The notes below the pieces were generated by a model. The model did no database searches. It was not told the DNA's origin and saw only the letters and a list, made by a program, of their open reading frames with translations. The position numbers and the translations under genes were made by a program. From Rhodovulum tesquicola (GTDB lineage Bacteria; Pseudomonadota; Alphaproteobacteria; Rhodobacterales; Rhodobacteraceae): a stretch of 64,000 nt of DNA. Location of the stretch: contig NZ_JAMYDV010000004.1 of assembly GCF_024128855.1 (NCBI RefSeq), positions 124,001-188,000 of the forward strand, in the 5' to 3' direction. This document shows, one piece after another, positions 11,624 to 45,919 of the stretch; the first letter of the stretch is position 1; each line of letters opens with the position of its first letter.

Positions 11624-12274
11624 ATGAAAGACGCCCGCCCTCTGCCGCAATACCTCGTCCAGCGTTACCAGGGCTGGAAGGCCACCGCCCATGCCGAGAA
11701 CAAGGCCTGGTTTCGCCGCCTCGCCGAGGAAGGACAGCGCCCGCGCACGATGGTCATCTCCTGCTGCGACTCGCGCGTGCATGTCAGCGCGATGTTCCGC
11801 GCGGACGGGGGCGAGTTCTTCATCCATCGCAACATCGCGGCGCTGGTGCCGCCCTACGCGCCCGATGGCGGCAATCACGGCACCTCGGCGGCGGTGGAAT
11901 ATGCGGTCACCGTGCTCAAGGTGGCGAACCTGCTGGTGGTGGGCCATTCCCGCTGCGGCGGCATCAAGGGCTGCCATGACATGTGCGCGGGCCTCGCGCC
12001 CGAGCTTGAGGAAAAGACCAGCTTCATCGGCCGCTGGATGGACATCCTGCGCCCCAGCTACGACCGGACCGAAGGGGCCGCGACCGAGGCCGACCGGCTG
12101 GAAGCGATGGAAAAGGACGCGGTGCTGGTCTCGCTCGAGAACCTGATGACCTTTCCCTATGTGCGCGCCGCGGTCGAGGCCGAGGAACTGGCCCTGCACG
12201 GGCTTTGGAAGGATATCGCCGAGGGCGTGGTGGAATGCTACGATCCCGAAACCGGGCGGTTCGTGGCGATCTGA
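11624..12274 (+). CDS. Beta-class carbonic anhydrase
   Basis: A 216-residue beta-carbonic anhydrase that interconverts CO2 and bicarbonate. The zinc ligands are Cys48 in CCDSR, His108 and Cys111 in GHSRCGG, with the Asp49-Arg51 dyad of the family. Length is normal and no export signal is present. ATG 11624 was chosen (GGAG six bases upstream) although a GTG lies directly before it. The next two plus-strand genes encode an SbtA-like bicarbonate permease and an SbtB-like PII protein, so the enzyme probably equilibrates imported bicarbonate with CO2 for fixation or carboxylation. Confidence 0.95.
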   Translation: MKDARPLPQYLVQRYQGWKATAHAENKAWFRRLAEEGQRPRTMVISCCDSRVHVSAMFRADGGEFFIHRNIAALVPPYAPDGGNHGTSAAVEYAVTVLKVANLLVVGHSRCGGIKGCHDMCAGLAPELEEKTSFIGRWMDILRPSYDRTEGAATEADRLEAMEKDAVLVSLENLMTFPYVRAAVEAEELALHGLWKDIAEGVVECYDPETGRFVAI

Positions 12275-12329
12275 TCCGGTCCTTGGCGCATGATCCATCG
12301 GGGTCCAACAGAATGAACGGGGGCCGCAC

Positions 12330-13307
12330 CTGACCGGCATCGTCGAACTCGCGGCGGGCAACCTGCTGTCGCCGATCATCCTCAGCTTCGCGCTCGGGCT
12401 CGCCGCGGCGCTGGCGCGCTCCGATCTCTCCGTGCCCGAGGCCGCGGCCAAGGCGCTGTCGATCTACCTGCTCTTCGCCATCGGCTTCAAGGGCGGCGCG
12501 GGCGTCGCGGCGCACGGGCTGGACGGCACGCTGGTTCTGGCGCTGCTGGCGGGGCTGGTTCTGTCGGCGGGCATCCCCTTCGTGGCCTTTGCCCTGCTGC
12601 GGACGATGACCCGGCTGGGCACGGTGGATGCGGGCGCGGTCGCGGCGCATTACGGCTCGATCTCGATCGTGACCTTCGTGGCCGCGACATCGGTGCTGAC
12701 CGGCCAGGGCATCGCGTCCGAGGGCTTCATGGTCGCCGTCGCCGCGATCATGGAGGCGCCCGCGATCCTCGCCGCGCTGTGGCTGGTGATGCGCAAGGGC
12801 GGCCAGACCGACGTGGAATCCGGCCTCTGGCGCGAGATCCTGCTCAACGGCTCGATCGTGTTGCTGATCGGCGCCTTCGCCATCGGCTGGATCACCGGCC
12901 CCCAGGGGCTGGCCGAGATCGAAAGCTTCATCGTCGCGCCCTTCAAGGGCGTGCTCTGCCTGTTCCTGCTGGACATGGGGCTGGTCGCGGGCCGCAACCT
13001 GCGCAACAGCCGGGGCGTGATCACGCCGGGGCTGCTGGCCTTCGGGGTGGTCATGCCGCCCATCGGCGCCGCCTTCGGGCTGGCGGCGGGGCTGGCGCTG
13101 GGTCTCAGCCTGGGCGGCGTGGTGCTGATGATGACGCTGGCGGCCTCGGCCTCCTATATCGCGGTCCCGGCCGCGATGCGGGTGGCGCTGCCCGACGCGA
13201 ACCCGTCGATCTACCTGACGCTGTCGCTCGGGATCACCTTCCCCTTCAACCTGACGCTGGGCATCCCGCTCTACCTTGCCGCGGCCCGGCTTGCGACCGG
13301 AGGATAG
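12330..13307 (+). CDS. SbtA-type sodium-dependent bicarbonate permease (start codon uncertain)
   Basis: About 325 residues with some ten membrane segments in two repeats. The conserved N-terminal block is TGIVELAAGNLLSPIILSFA, followed by LSIYLLFAIGFKGG and the late SLGITFPFNLTLGIPLY, all typical of the SbtA family of Na+/bicarbonate symporters. In-frame ATG or GTG codons occur only downstream (GTG 12432), which would delete the first helix. The frame reaches back to CTG at 12330. An ATG at 12313 is one base out of frame across a run of five G. Either CTG initiation or a one-base indel is likely. An SbtB gene follows directly. Confidence 0.8.
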   Translation: MTGIVELAAGNLLSPIILSFALGLAAALARSDLSVPEAAAKALSIYLLFAIGFKGGAGVAAHGLDGTLVLALLAGLVLSAGIPFVAFALLRTMTRLGTVDAGAVAAHYGSISIVTFVAATSVLTGQGIASEGFMVAVAAIMEAPAILAALWLVMRKGGQTDVESGLWREILLNGSIVLLIGAFAIGWITGPQGLAEIESFIVAPFKGVLCLFLLDMGLVAGRNLRNSRGVITPGLLAFGVVMPPIGAAFGLAAGLALGLSLGGVVLMMTLAASASYIAVPAAMRVALPDANPSIYLTLSLGITFPFNLTLGIPLYLAAARLATGG

Positions 13308-13311
13308 GCCC

Positions 13312-13623
13312 ATGCAGACCCATGCCGCGAAACGGGTAGAGATCATCATCGAGGCGCCGATGGAACGCCGCCTGACCGCCGCGCTGCGCGAGGCGGGCGT
13401 CACCGGCTATACCGTGCTGCCGGTCCTGGGCGGCACCGGCCGCTCCGGCCCCTGGAGCCGCGAGGGACAGGTGGGGCGCGCGGGCGGCATGGTCGCCGTC
13501 GTCTGCCTGATCCGGCCCGAACGGCTGGACGCGCTGCTCGACGCCGCCTTCGCCGTGGTCGAGCGCCATATCGGCGTCGTCTCGGTCACCGATTGCCAGG
13601 TGCTGCGCGCCGAACGGTTCTGA
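13312..13623 (+). CDS. SbtB-like PII family regulatory protein
   Basis: A 103-residue PII-superfamily protein with the ferredoxin-like core (RVEIIIEAPMERRLTAALRE, VAVVCLIRPERLDALLDAAF). Its T-loop region has GGTGRSGPWSREGQ. SbtB proteins bind adenine nucleotides and regulate the SbtA bicarbonate permease by trimer-trimer contact. The gene follows the sbtA-like gene by four bases with GGAGGA as ribosome site, the order known from cyanobacteria. The canonical GlnB uridylylation Tyr motif was not seen, so it is unlikely to be an ordinary nitrogen PII protein. Confidence 0.85.
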   Translation: MQTHAAKRVEIIIEAPMERRLTAALREAGVTGYTVLPVLGGTGRSGPWSREGQVGRAGGMVAVVCLIRPERLDALLDAAFAVVERHIGVVSVTDCQVLRAERF

Positions 13624-44084: not shown

Positions 44085-45056
44085 TCAGCCTCCTGTCCGC
44101 CCGGTATAGGCTTCGTAGCCATAGGGCTCCATGTATTCCGGAGCGAAGTTGTGCTCCTGAGCCCAGATGAACCAGTTGTCGACAACCGTGCCGGTCAGCA
44201 GGATGCCGATCCCGCCCGTGATCGGGGTGAGAACCGCAAACCACCAGGCCCAGCGGTGGATACCTTCCATCGTGGCGTTGAAGCCCATGGTCCAGCGCCA
44301 GAACAGCGCCGCGCGTTCGGCCGCGGTGCCGCGGTCGTAGATCTGCTCCAGTTCGCGGTCGCCGCCGAAGCGGGTCACGGCGAGAATGGTGCCGCCATGC
44401 ATCGCGAAGAGCAGGGCAGAGCCATAGAGGAACGCGATCGAAAGCGCGTGGAAGGGGTTGTAGTAAAGGTTGCCGTAGCGGATCGAGAAGGCCGTGGTCC
44501 AGTCGAGGTGCGGGAAGATGCCATAGGGCACCATCTCCGACCAGCTGCCCATCAGGATCGGGCGGAAGAAGCCCAGCACCATGAACAGCCAGATCGCGGC
44601 CAGGAACGCCCAGGCAATATGCTTGCCCATCTTGTGCTCGGCAGCCAGCGCATAGGTGCGCCACCACCAGGCCCAGACCGAGATCAGCAGGAAGAAGCTG
44701 GCGATCATGTACCAGCCGCCATCGCTGAGCGGCGGAATGCGCAGGCCGTATTCCGGGCTGGGCGGTTCCAGCGCCAGCCAGAAGCCCTGACGCAGGAACT
44801 GGACGATCGAGTAATCGACCTGCGCCAGCATGTTGAACCCGATGATGAAGAAGGCGGTGAAGCCGGCGAAGATCGAGATCACACCTGCATAACCCAGATA
44901 GATCGGGCCGAGCTGTGCGTTGCCGAACCAGCCGAGGATCGGGAAGTTGCCGACGCCGCCGACCCGCTCCTCCATCATGTTGTTCTCGTTGTCCATGCCC
45001 CAGTCACCGGAGCCGGCAACCTGGACCTGGGTGAAGATGTTCTGATACTCAGCCAT
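44085..45056 (-). CDS. pufM: Photosynthetic reaction centre subunit M
   Basis: A 323-residue membrane protein with five helices. With PufL it binds the bacteriochlorophyll special pair, bacteriopheophytins, quinones and non-haem iron. Recognisable stretches are [10 protein letters not shown]-type ([20 protein letters not shown]), [20 protein letters not shown] and [20 protein letters not shown] with His ligands. The C-terminus is extended ([20 protein letters not shown]). It begins two bases after the pufL stop. Confidence 0.98.
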
Positions 45057-45058
45057 GG

Positions 45059-45919
45059 TTACATAACTCCTTGGCCTGCGCCGGCGGCCTCGATATCGGG
45101 CCAGATCGGCATGTTGCTCCACCAGGTCCACCACTCGGGCCAGCCTTCGGTCCAGAGCGGACCGGAGATGATGATGCAGACGGCCGAGAAGAAGACCGCG
45201 TTGATCGCCAGCAGCCAGCCAAGCCGGTGAATCCCGAGCGTCCCGACCGAGTAACCGATGAGGTCACGGAAGAACGTGTCTTCGTGGTCGGGGGTCTTGG
45301 CTTCTTCGCCCTTTTCCGGGTTGCAGGCCGACAGGATCAGACCGCCATGCAGAGCCAGCGCCAGACAGGTGGCGAAGAACAGCGACACGCCGAGCATGTG
45401 GAACGGGTTGTAGTGGAAGTGCAGGTAGGCGTAGCCGGTATTCGACACCCAGTCGAGGTGGCTGAAGATACCGTAGGGGAAGCCATGACCCCAGGCGCCC
45501 AGAAGCAACGGGCGGAACACAACGAGGGTAACATAGGCCAGGATCGCAACGCTGAACGCGATCGGAACGTGGTAGCCCATTCCGAGTTTGCGGCAGATTT
45601 CGACTTCCCTGAGCGCCCAGCTGACGAACGCGCCGATGGCGCATACGGTGATGAATTGCCAAAGCCCGCCCTCGGCCAGCGGCGCGATGCCCAGACCATG
45701 CGAAAGGTCAGGCGGCGCAACGTGGATCGTGAACGGGTTGAAGGTTCCTTGCAGGGACGCGCTGTAGAAGATCAGCGCGGTCCCAAGGGTGGCGAAAAAG
45801 GCGGTCGTCACTCCGAAGAAGCCTACGTAGAAAGGCCCCACCCAAAAGTCGAACAGATCGCCACCGATGAGCGTCCCTCCACGGACGCGATACTTTCTCT
45901 CAAAACTGAGCAGTGCCAT
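45059..45919 (-). CDS. pufL: Photosynthetic reaction centre subunit L
   Basis: A 286-residue five-helix membrane protein, the L half of the reaction centre core. It begins [20 protein letters not shown]. Conserved His ligands lie in [40 protein letters not shown] and [16 protein letters not shown]. The cistron is separated from pufA by 143 bases with a strong stem-loop, unlike the tight junctions elsewhere in the operon. Confidence 0.98.

Follow-up and report, generated by a model that had tools for sequence, protein, structure and literature searches.

What would a phototroph without carboxysomes do with a set of genes that resembles a bicarbonate uptake system of cyanobacteria? The question is raised by a 64,000-nucleotide stretch of the Rhodovulum tesquicola genome (hereafter the window; contig NZ_JAMYDV010000004.1, positions 124,001 to 188,000), in which an original prediction, made from the letters alone, placed a beta-carbonic anhydrase (CA), a bicarbonate symporter and an SbtB-like PII protein side by side. 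It likened this arrangement to the core of cyanobacterial bicarbonate uptake and suggested a bicarbonate-concentrating module.

A likely operon in a phototroph

The three adjacent plus-strand genes have the predicted coordinates and strand, and Pfam matched each product to a family. The first gene (11624..12274) encodes a 216 amino acid beta-carbonic anhydrase (Pro_CA, 3.2e-41, residues 42-203), the second (12330..13307) a 325 amino acid SbtA-like permease with an apparent CTG start (Sbt_1, 1.8e-113, residues 15-319), and the third (13312..13623) a 103 amino acid PII-like protein of the CPII type (P-II, 2.6e-15, residues 7-101). The Pfam families and the conserved adjacency described below bear out the predicted trio, which is likely transcribed as one operon. 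An NCBIfam search returned no family for the permease and, for the PII-like protein, only a match below the cut-off, with none at 1e-5. A literature search covering Sbt, CPII and proteobacterial PII-like proteins, from which subscription papers were mostly missing, listed no account of the operon, a result that leaves its absence unproven.

CCDSR begins at residue 47 of the carbonic anhydrase and HSRCGG at residue 108, so that the protein has both CxDSR and HxxC, which we take to be the active-site motifs of beta-carbonic anhydrases. Its best PDB match was the beta-CA 1ekj (5.1e-32), and we read its N-terminus as that of a cytosolic enzyme.

The window is part of contig 4 of a 3.5 Mb genome that is 99.92% complete, and Rhodovulum species were the nearest named relatives by permease protein among the matches listed. 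The host was rightly described as a phototroph, given two Photo_RC reaction-centre genes (window 44145-45832, minus strand). Its genome holds one Sbt_1 gene and two Pro_CA genes, the operon's own and a weaker match elsewhere. Two RuBisCO large-subunit genes are present, both on contigs other than the operon's; we read the first, which also matches the NCBIfam large-subunit model and is followed by a cbbQ-like gene, as form I, and the second, beside aldolase- and epimerase-like genes, as form II. A search of the host genome for BMC shell proteins (PF00936, which matched 2/14 control genomes) gave 0 matches, and searches for CsoS2 and DabA gave none, so that the statement that no carboxysomes were in view, originally made for the window, extends to BMC and CsoS2 matches anywhere in the genome.

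The permease has an SbtA fold and an apparent CTG start

In the permease frame upstream of 12432 there is no ATG, GTG or TTG, and 12432 already lies inside the conserved region. The start codons of related permeases align with the CTG at 12330: ATG, GTG or TTG stands at exactly this codon in 88/109 loci (7 duplicates included), and the remaining 21 start within three codons of the equivalent position. The permeases of Rhodovulum marinum, euryhalinum and bhavnagarense (best-segment identity 90%, 92% and 86%) start at the equivalent codon with ATG, TTG and TTG, respectively. The CTG appears to be either a start codon of a rarely used kind or the result of an error in the assembly; shortly upstream, at 12313, an ATG in another frame directly precedes a run of five G (window 12310-12335).

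An AlphaFold model of the permease (pLDDT 86.5) aligned 321 residues with SbtA 8zor_A (Z 44.0, rmsd 2.0) and 315 with SbtA 7cye_A (Z 39.8, rmsd 2.1); the best non-Sbt structure reached Z 23.1. By Pfam model and SbtA fold, the permease belongs to the Sbt_1 superfamily (PF05982).

The permease lies in an SbtA-like branch separate from canonical SbtA

The putative bicarbonate contacts of Slr1512, Ser114, Tyr140, Ser324 and Ser327, correspond to Ser, Ala, Ser and Ala in the window permease. The Slr1512 site comes from docking, and replacing any one of these contacts by alanine leaves about 10–40% of the activity (PMC8352866). Among 91 Sbt proteins that we compared, all 15 canonical proteins keep Ser114, Tyr140, Ser324, Asp325 and Ser327, and the 76 SbtA-like proteins (window included) have Ser114 in 75, Ser324 and a Tyr at 325 in 76/76, and Ala (71), Asp (3) or Val (2) at 327 with Ser in none, tallies that are partly built in at 324-327 because the grouping itself used the motif around 322-328. 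Position 140, which like the tree is independent of this sorting, is Ala, Leu, Met or Val in the 76 SbtA-like proteins and Tyr in none of them.

A FastTree phylogeny, from which L116 and L120 had been excluded beforehand, split the 15 canonical proteins from the 76 SbtA-like ones, including the window's, with a support of 0.925, and placed the window permease in a clade of 28 members, all PII-linked (support 0.939). Identity of the window permease to the canonical group is 27-32%. The residues at Tyr140 and Ser327 and the tree led us to reject a plain, cyanobacterial-type SbtA: the permease belongs to an SbtA-like branch of its own, where Tyr140 and Ser327, half of the putative bicarbonate contacts, are replaced. 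Judged from its residues, the Sbt_1 superfamily holds at least two clades with different predicted substrate pockets.

A second, longer Sbt type with cyanobacterial motifs is also present in Rhodobacteraceae genomes, and one such protein matched Slr1512 at 8.1e-107, versus 2e-21 for the window permease. Nine of the 15 genomes fetched with a canonical gene also hold an SbtA-like permease (for example G081, G116, G145, G186 and G266). At 10/15 of the canonical loci of Rhodobacteraceae (L121-L135), the opposite strand carries a LysR-type gene, and 4/15 have a PII match.

The PII-like protein groups with CPII

With the PII-like protein alone as a phmmer query, the best PDB match was Thiomonas CPII 5d4n (6.4e-9), and SbtB 6mm2 (SbtB7001) scored 0.0035. 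A profile, which included one SbtB-like row from Arthrobacter, matched CPII 5d4n at 1.9e-15, the Thermus PII-like 2cz4 at 1.9e-10, SbtB7001 at 6.4e-10 and Slr1513 at about 1e-7. A model of the protein (pLDDT 87.1) aligned 102 residues with CPII 5d4n/5d4o (Z 14.0, rmsd 2.1) and reached Z 11.9 against SbtB, but the fold alone fails to separate the types because a classical PII (1hwu) reaches Z 13.2, within 1 of CPII. In a tree of PII proteins, the window protein and its relatives grouped with Thiomonas CPII (support 0.913), and SbtB7001 grouped with four PIIs encoded beside canonical SbtA (support 0.942). By profile ranking and tree we rejected an SbtB; the partner predicted to be SbtB-like sits with CPII and not in the SbtB clade. 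It ends in RAERF and is without the C-terminal CGPxGC redox loop, a motif conserved in some SbtB homologs only, the absence of which is not decisive (PMC8352866).

CPII is carboxysome-associated and bicarbonate-regulated according to the title of its paper, and the titles of CPII structures in the PDB name ADP, AMP and bicarbonate, one of them also acetate. By analogy, the window PII may bind adenylates and bicarbonate. Its gene is not in a carboxysome locus, the genome having no BMC or CsoS2 match. In another genome, in which no permease was detected, a PII-profile match (G177:C3:127270-127566; 6.1e-15) and a RuBisCO large-subunit gene lie about 12 kb apart.

The permease-PII pair is conserved among close relatives

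As relatives we took the best permease matches listed, comprising 29 loci of the family besides the window and 80 named ones, or 102 distinct loci after 7 duplicates were dropped. The PII gene follows the permease in all 102 of these best-matching loci, -4 to 17 nt downstream of its end (median 3), an adjacency that exceeds chance. In a hand-chosen survey of 80 family genomes, the PII profile matched 30/30 genomes with a close permease, 1/10 with a more distant permease and 1/40 without the permease. Among 40 permease loci sampled at phylum level, 16 had a PII match within about 4 kb, 6 a CA match and 25 a LysR-type gene; five had neither PII nor LysR within that distance. The generality of the pairing is weakened by these counts: outside the close clade, a PII partner of the permease is not general.

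Other neighbors were seen around individual permeases. On plasmid p.A of Cereibacter sphaeroides (L136), an SbtA-like permease close to cbbL, cbbS and a CbbQ-family gene is flanked by LysR genes on both sides, with no listed PII, and LysR-type neighbors of SbtA-like permeases also occur on Tritonibacter and Maritalea plasmids. Around the SbtA-like permeases of three 1.2-1.4 Mb genomes (L149, L150, L182), no PII, CA or LysR was detected in the fetched stretch. A methylmalonyl-CoA-mutase-family gene lies upstream in five loci, mostly of Roseibium/Labrenzia (L039, L040, L041, L046, L050), and would be compatible with CO2-fixing acetate metabolism.

Using the window's own CA protein as sole query, we found a CA at most 0.8 kb from the permease in 62 of the 102 distinct best-matching loci, with 51 of these CAs upstream in the same orientation, 9 downstream and 2 divergent. 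One further CA lay at 3.8 kb, and none was found near the permease in 39/102 loci, some of which have short flanks (for example L011, L021, L030 and L058). The CAs found downstream or in divergent orientation share only 26-44% identity with the window CA, so the link between CA and permease probably arose more than once.

SbtA-like permeases occur in carboxysome loci

Since CsoS2 was found in only 1/398 genomes of a phylum-wide sample, we used a class-level sample (the class of G506, probably Gammaproteobacteria), in which 72/369 genomes were positive. One CsoS2 gene per genome was taken with up to 20 kb around it, less at contig ends. An Sbt is encoded in 22 of these 72 loci, and 19 of the 22 have a PII beside it; no Sbt was found in the fetched stretch of the other 50. 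The SbtA-like motif is present in 20 of the 22 and the canonical one in 0, and the remaining 2 score as SbtA-like although their motif could not be read. Ser324, Tyr325 and Ala327 occur in 21/22 of the carboxysome-locus permeases, with a gap in the remaining one. Position 140 is mostly Leu, versus Ala in the window permease, which is only 41-47% identical to them. The transporter's carboxysome link is firmer than that of the PII because the PIIs of the sampled carboxysome loci fall outside the window PII clade in the tree; one of them, searched alone, best matched a Thermus protein (1.2e-10), with CPII second (2.3e-7). In one Rhodobacteraceae genome (G181, L119), genes for phosphoribulokinase, PII, an SbtA-like permease and CsoS2 lie within 17 kb, in what appears to be an alpha-carboxysome locus.

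Two published experiments bear on the substrate. The Sbt-CS of Thiomicrospira pelophila, encoded near a carboxysome locus, is described in the accessible part of its paper as rescuing CA-less E. coli and raising internal DIC (PMC12628692); Sbt-CS presumably belongs to the SbtA-like branch. According to the accessible part of a second paper, E. coli with the Labrenzia alexandrii SbtA-like protein took up no H14CO3-, a CA mutant was complemented by cyanobacterial SbtAs only, and no expression check for the Labrenzia protein is given there (Du 2014, PMC4275256). This protein is probably in the same group as the window permease, to which the permease of Labrenzia sp. OB1 is 74% identical. The Labrenzia result had suggested to us that the branch does not carry bicarbonate, a reading that we withdrew because the branch fills carboxysome loci. 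Given those loci and the Sbt-CS result, an altered pocket alone does not exclude bicarbonate, which we regard as the likely, though unproven, substrate. The predicted bicarbonate symporter thus stands as to family (Sbt_1) and likely substrate, but the one published alphaproteobacterial SbtA-like test, as far as the accessible text goes, was negative (PMC4275256).

Permease carriers show no positive association with RuBisCO

We surveyed 295 genomes of the family, scoring as carriers those with an SbtA-like match below 1e-90 and as RuBisCO a form I/II-like match of at least 387 bits, which leaves out lower-scoring RuBisCO-like proteins. The permease is present in 81/295 genomes, form I/II RuBisCO in 50/295 and both in 8; 73/81 carriers have no full-length form I/II RuBisCO match. 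RuBisCO occurs in 8/81 carriers versus 42/214 non-carriers (odds ratio 0.45, Fisher p 0.055), in 9/81 versus 43/214 when two split or partial matches are added (p 0.087), and in 6/62 versus 44/233 for the close permease group only (p 0.090), p-values that are only indicative because the genomes are related and some are incomplete. A positive permease-RuBisCO association was looked for across the 295 family genomes and none was found. In one locus (L120; G252:C9:8000-20000), a broken SbtA-like permease with pieces in different frames is followed after about 1.5 kb by a RuBisCO large-subunit gene.

These counts speak against a carboxysome-free bicarbonate-concentrating module, in which the CA would dehydrate imported bicarbonate in the cytosol and thereby raise CO2 around RuBisCO in the phototroph. 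Such a module would suit a host with two RuBisCO large-subunit genes and reaction-centre genes, and permeases of the branch lie in or beside RuBisCO clusters in Cereibacter, in G181 and, as the broken copy, in G252. Nevertheless, the host's RuBisCO genes are on other contigs, and with no BMC or CsoS2 match in its genome CO2 would leak; we consider this reading unlikely. What survives of the predicted concentrating module is a likely carbon transport operon; the concentrating part is opposed by the absence of shell-protein matches, by a cytosolic CA that would equilibrate bicarbonate and by the missing RuBisCO association. With a CA encoded beside the permease and no match to shell proteins, the unit is better described as supplying carbon than as concentrating it. 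The accessible text of one paper proposes anaplerotic use of Sbt in Candidatus Phycosocius (PMC10008586), and that of another mentions Sbt in an anaplerotic setting in SAR11 IIIa (PMC10030771).

Discussion

We propose that the operon is a regulated supply of inorganic carbon, in which CPII-gated bicarbonate is provided to carboxylases, and not a CO2-concentrating mechanism; on balance we think this the probable reading. It builds on computed families, folds, conserved adjacency and clade membership and on the absence of a match to the carboxysome genes searched. The SbtA-like permease, as an elevator-type anion carrier, would import bicarbonate into the cytoplasm, probably coupled to Na+. A trimer of the CPII-type PII may bind its cytoplasmic face and gate it in response to adenylates and bicarbonate, and the beta-CA would interconvert bicarbonate and CO2 so that carboxylases have access to both. 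The consumers in most relatives may be bicarbonate- or CO2-requiring enzymes of heterotrophic metabolism, for which PEP, acetyl-CoA and propionyl-CoA carboxylases and the ethylmalonyl-CoA pathway are candidates; in the Rhodovulum host, free RuBisCOs could be fed as well.

In favor of such a supply are the 102/102 pairing, the repeated CA adjacency, the presence of the branch in carboxysome loci, Sbt-CS, the grouping with CPII, the G181 permease and PII with CsoS2 and phosphoribulokinase, and the Cereibacter permease near cbbL and cbbS. Counting against it are the risk of a futile leak from a cytosolic CA beside an importer, the Labrenzia result, the alanines at two of the four contacts, the permeases without a CA, the lack of a general PII partner outside the clade and the position of the carboxysome-locus PIIs outside that of the window PII.

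A wider conjecture, which we hold to be improbable, is that the SbtA-like/CPII pair with its co-operonic CA is a general two-way valve for bicarbonate in bacteria that have neither carboxysomes nor RuBisCO, controlled by a bicarbonate-sensing PII and serving CO2/pH homeostasis, not carbon fixation, with the carboxysome version as a recruited offshoot. Another alternative is outward flow: the CA would hydrate respiratory CO2, the permease would release bicarbonate, and a bicarbonate-sensing PII would gate this export or pH-balance valve. Most carriers are without RuBisCO, a CA in the same operon fits hydration, and the uptake result for Labrenzia was negative in the accessible text (PMC4275256). 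For SO_3758 of Shewanella, whose described residues A269, S270, Y271, I272 and A273 match the SbtA-like branch, the authors judge efflux more consistent with their modeling, again in the accessible part of the paper (PMC12093963). We nonetheless find export quite unlikely, as the same branch occupies alpha-carboxysome loci, where import is needed, and the accessible account of T. pelophila Sbt-CS has it raising internal DIC (PMC12628692). Least likely of all is carriage of a different small anion (formate or acetate, for example), with the CA link reflecting shared regulation only: pocket changes across the whole SbtA-like branch, an effect of SO_3758 on formate tolerance (PMC12093963, accessible part) and the acetate in one CPII structure title would fit it, but the recurrent CA adjacency and carboxysome-locus membership point to inorganic carbon.

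With inorganic-carbon supply as the preferred reading, the operon can be set beside known systems. With cyanobacterial SbtA-SbtB (Slr1512-Slr1513) it shares the superfamily, the 10-TM fold (Z 44.0) and the order of permease then PII-like protein; it differs in that the permease is in a separate clade with Tyr140, Asp325 and Ser327 replaced and the PII lies outside the SbtB clade. The likeness to the cyanobacterial bicarbonate-uptake core extends to superfamily, fold and the order of permease and PII, but not to the clades or to the CA, which is not mentioned in the sbtA-sbtB operon (PMC8352866). Thiomonas CPII is the best sequence match of the window PII and gives the top fold Z, with classical PII within 1. 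Carboxysome-locus Sbt proteins are of the same branch by motif in 20/22 Sbt-bearing loci, with a PII beside them in 19/22; unlike these systems, Thiomicrospira Sbt-CS among them, the window pair is preceded by a beta-CA, and no carboxysome genes were found in its host genome. Labrenzia/Roseibium loci combine permease, PII and a downstream CA, with permeases 73-75% identical to the window's. In the accessible texts on Sbt of heterotrophic alphaproteobacteria (Candidatus Phycosocius, PMC10008586; SAR11 IIIa, PMC10030771), there is no mention of a CPII partner or of an operon with a CA.

The operon is thus a carboxysome-free version of a known kind of transporter-regulator system, conserved among close relatives. 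Sbt_1 proteins, which are annotated as Na+-dependent bicarbonate transporters, fall into at least two clades that differ in their predicted substrate pockets, and the function of cyanobacterial SbtA cannot safely be assigned to all of them. In Rhodobacteraceae that are mostly RuBisCO-less, the constant pairing of a CPII-type PII with an SbtA-like permease, often joined by a CA, makes the function of CPII testable without confounding by carboxysomes.
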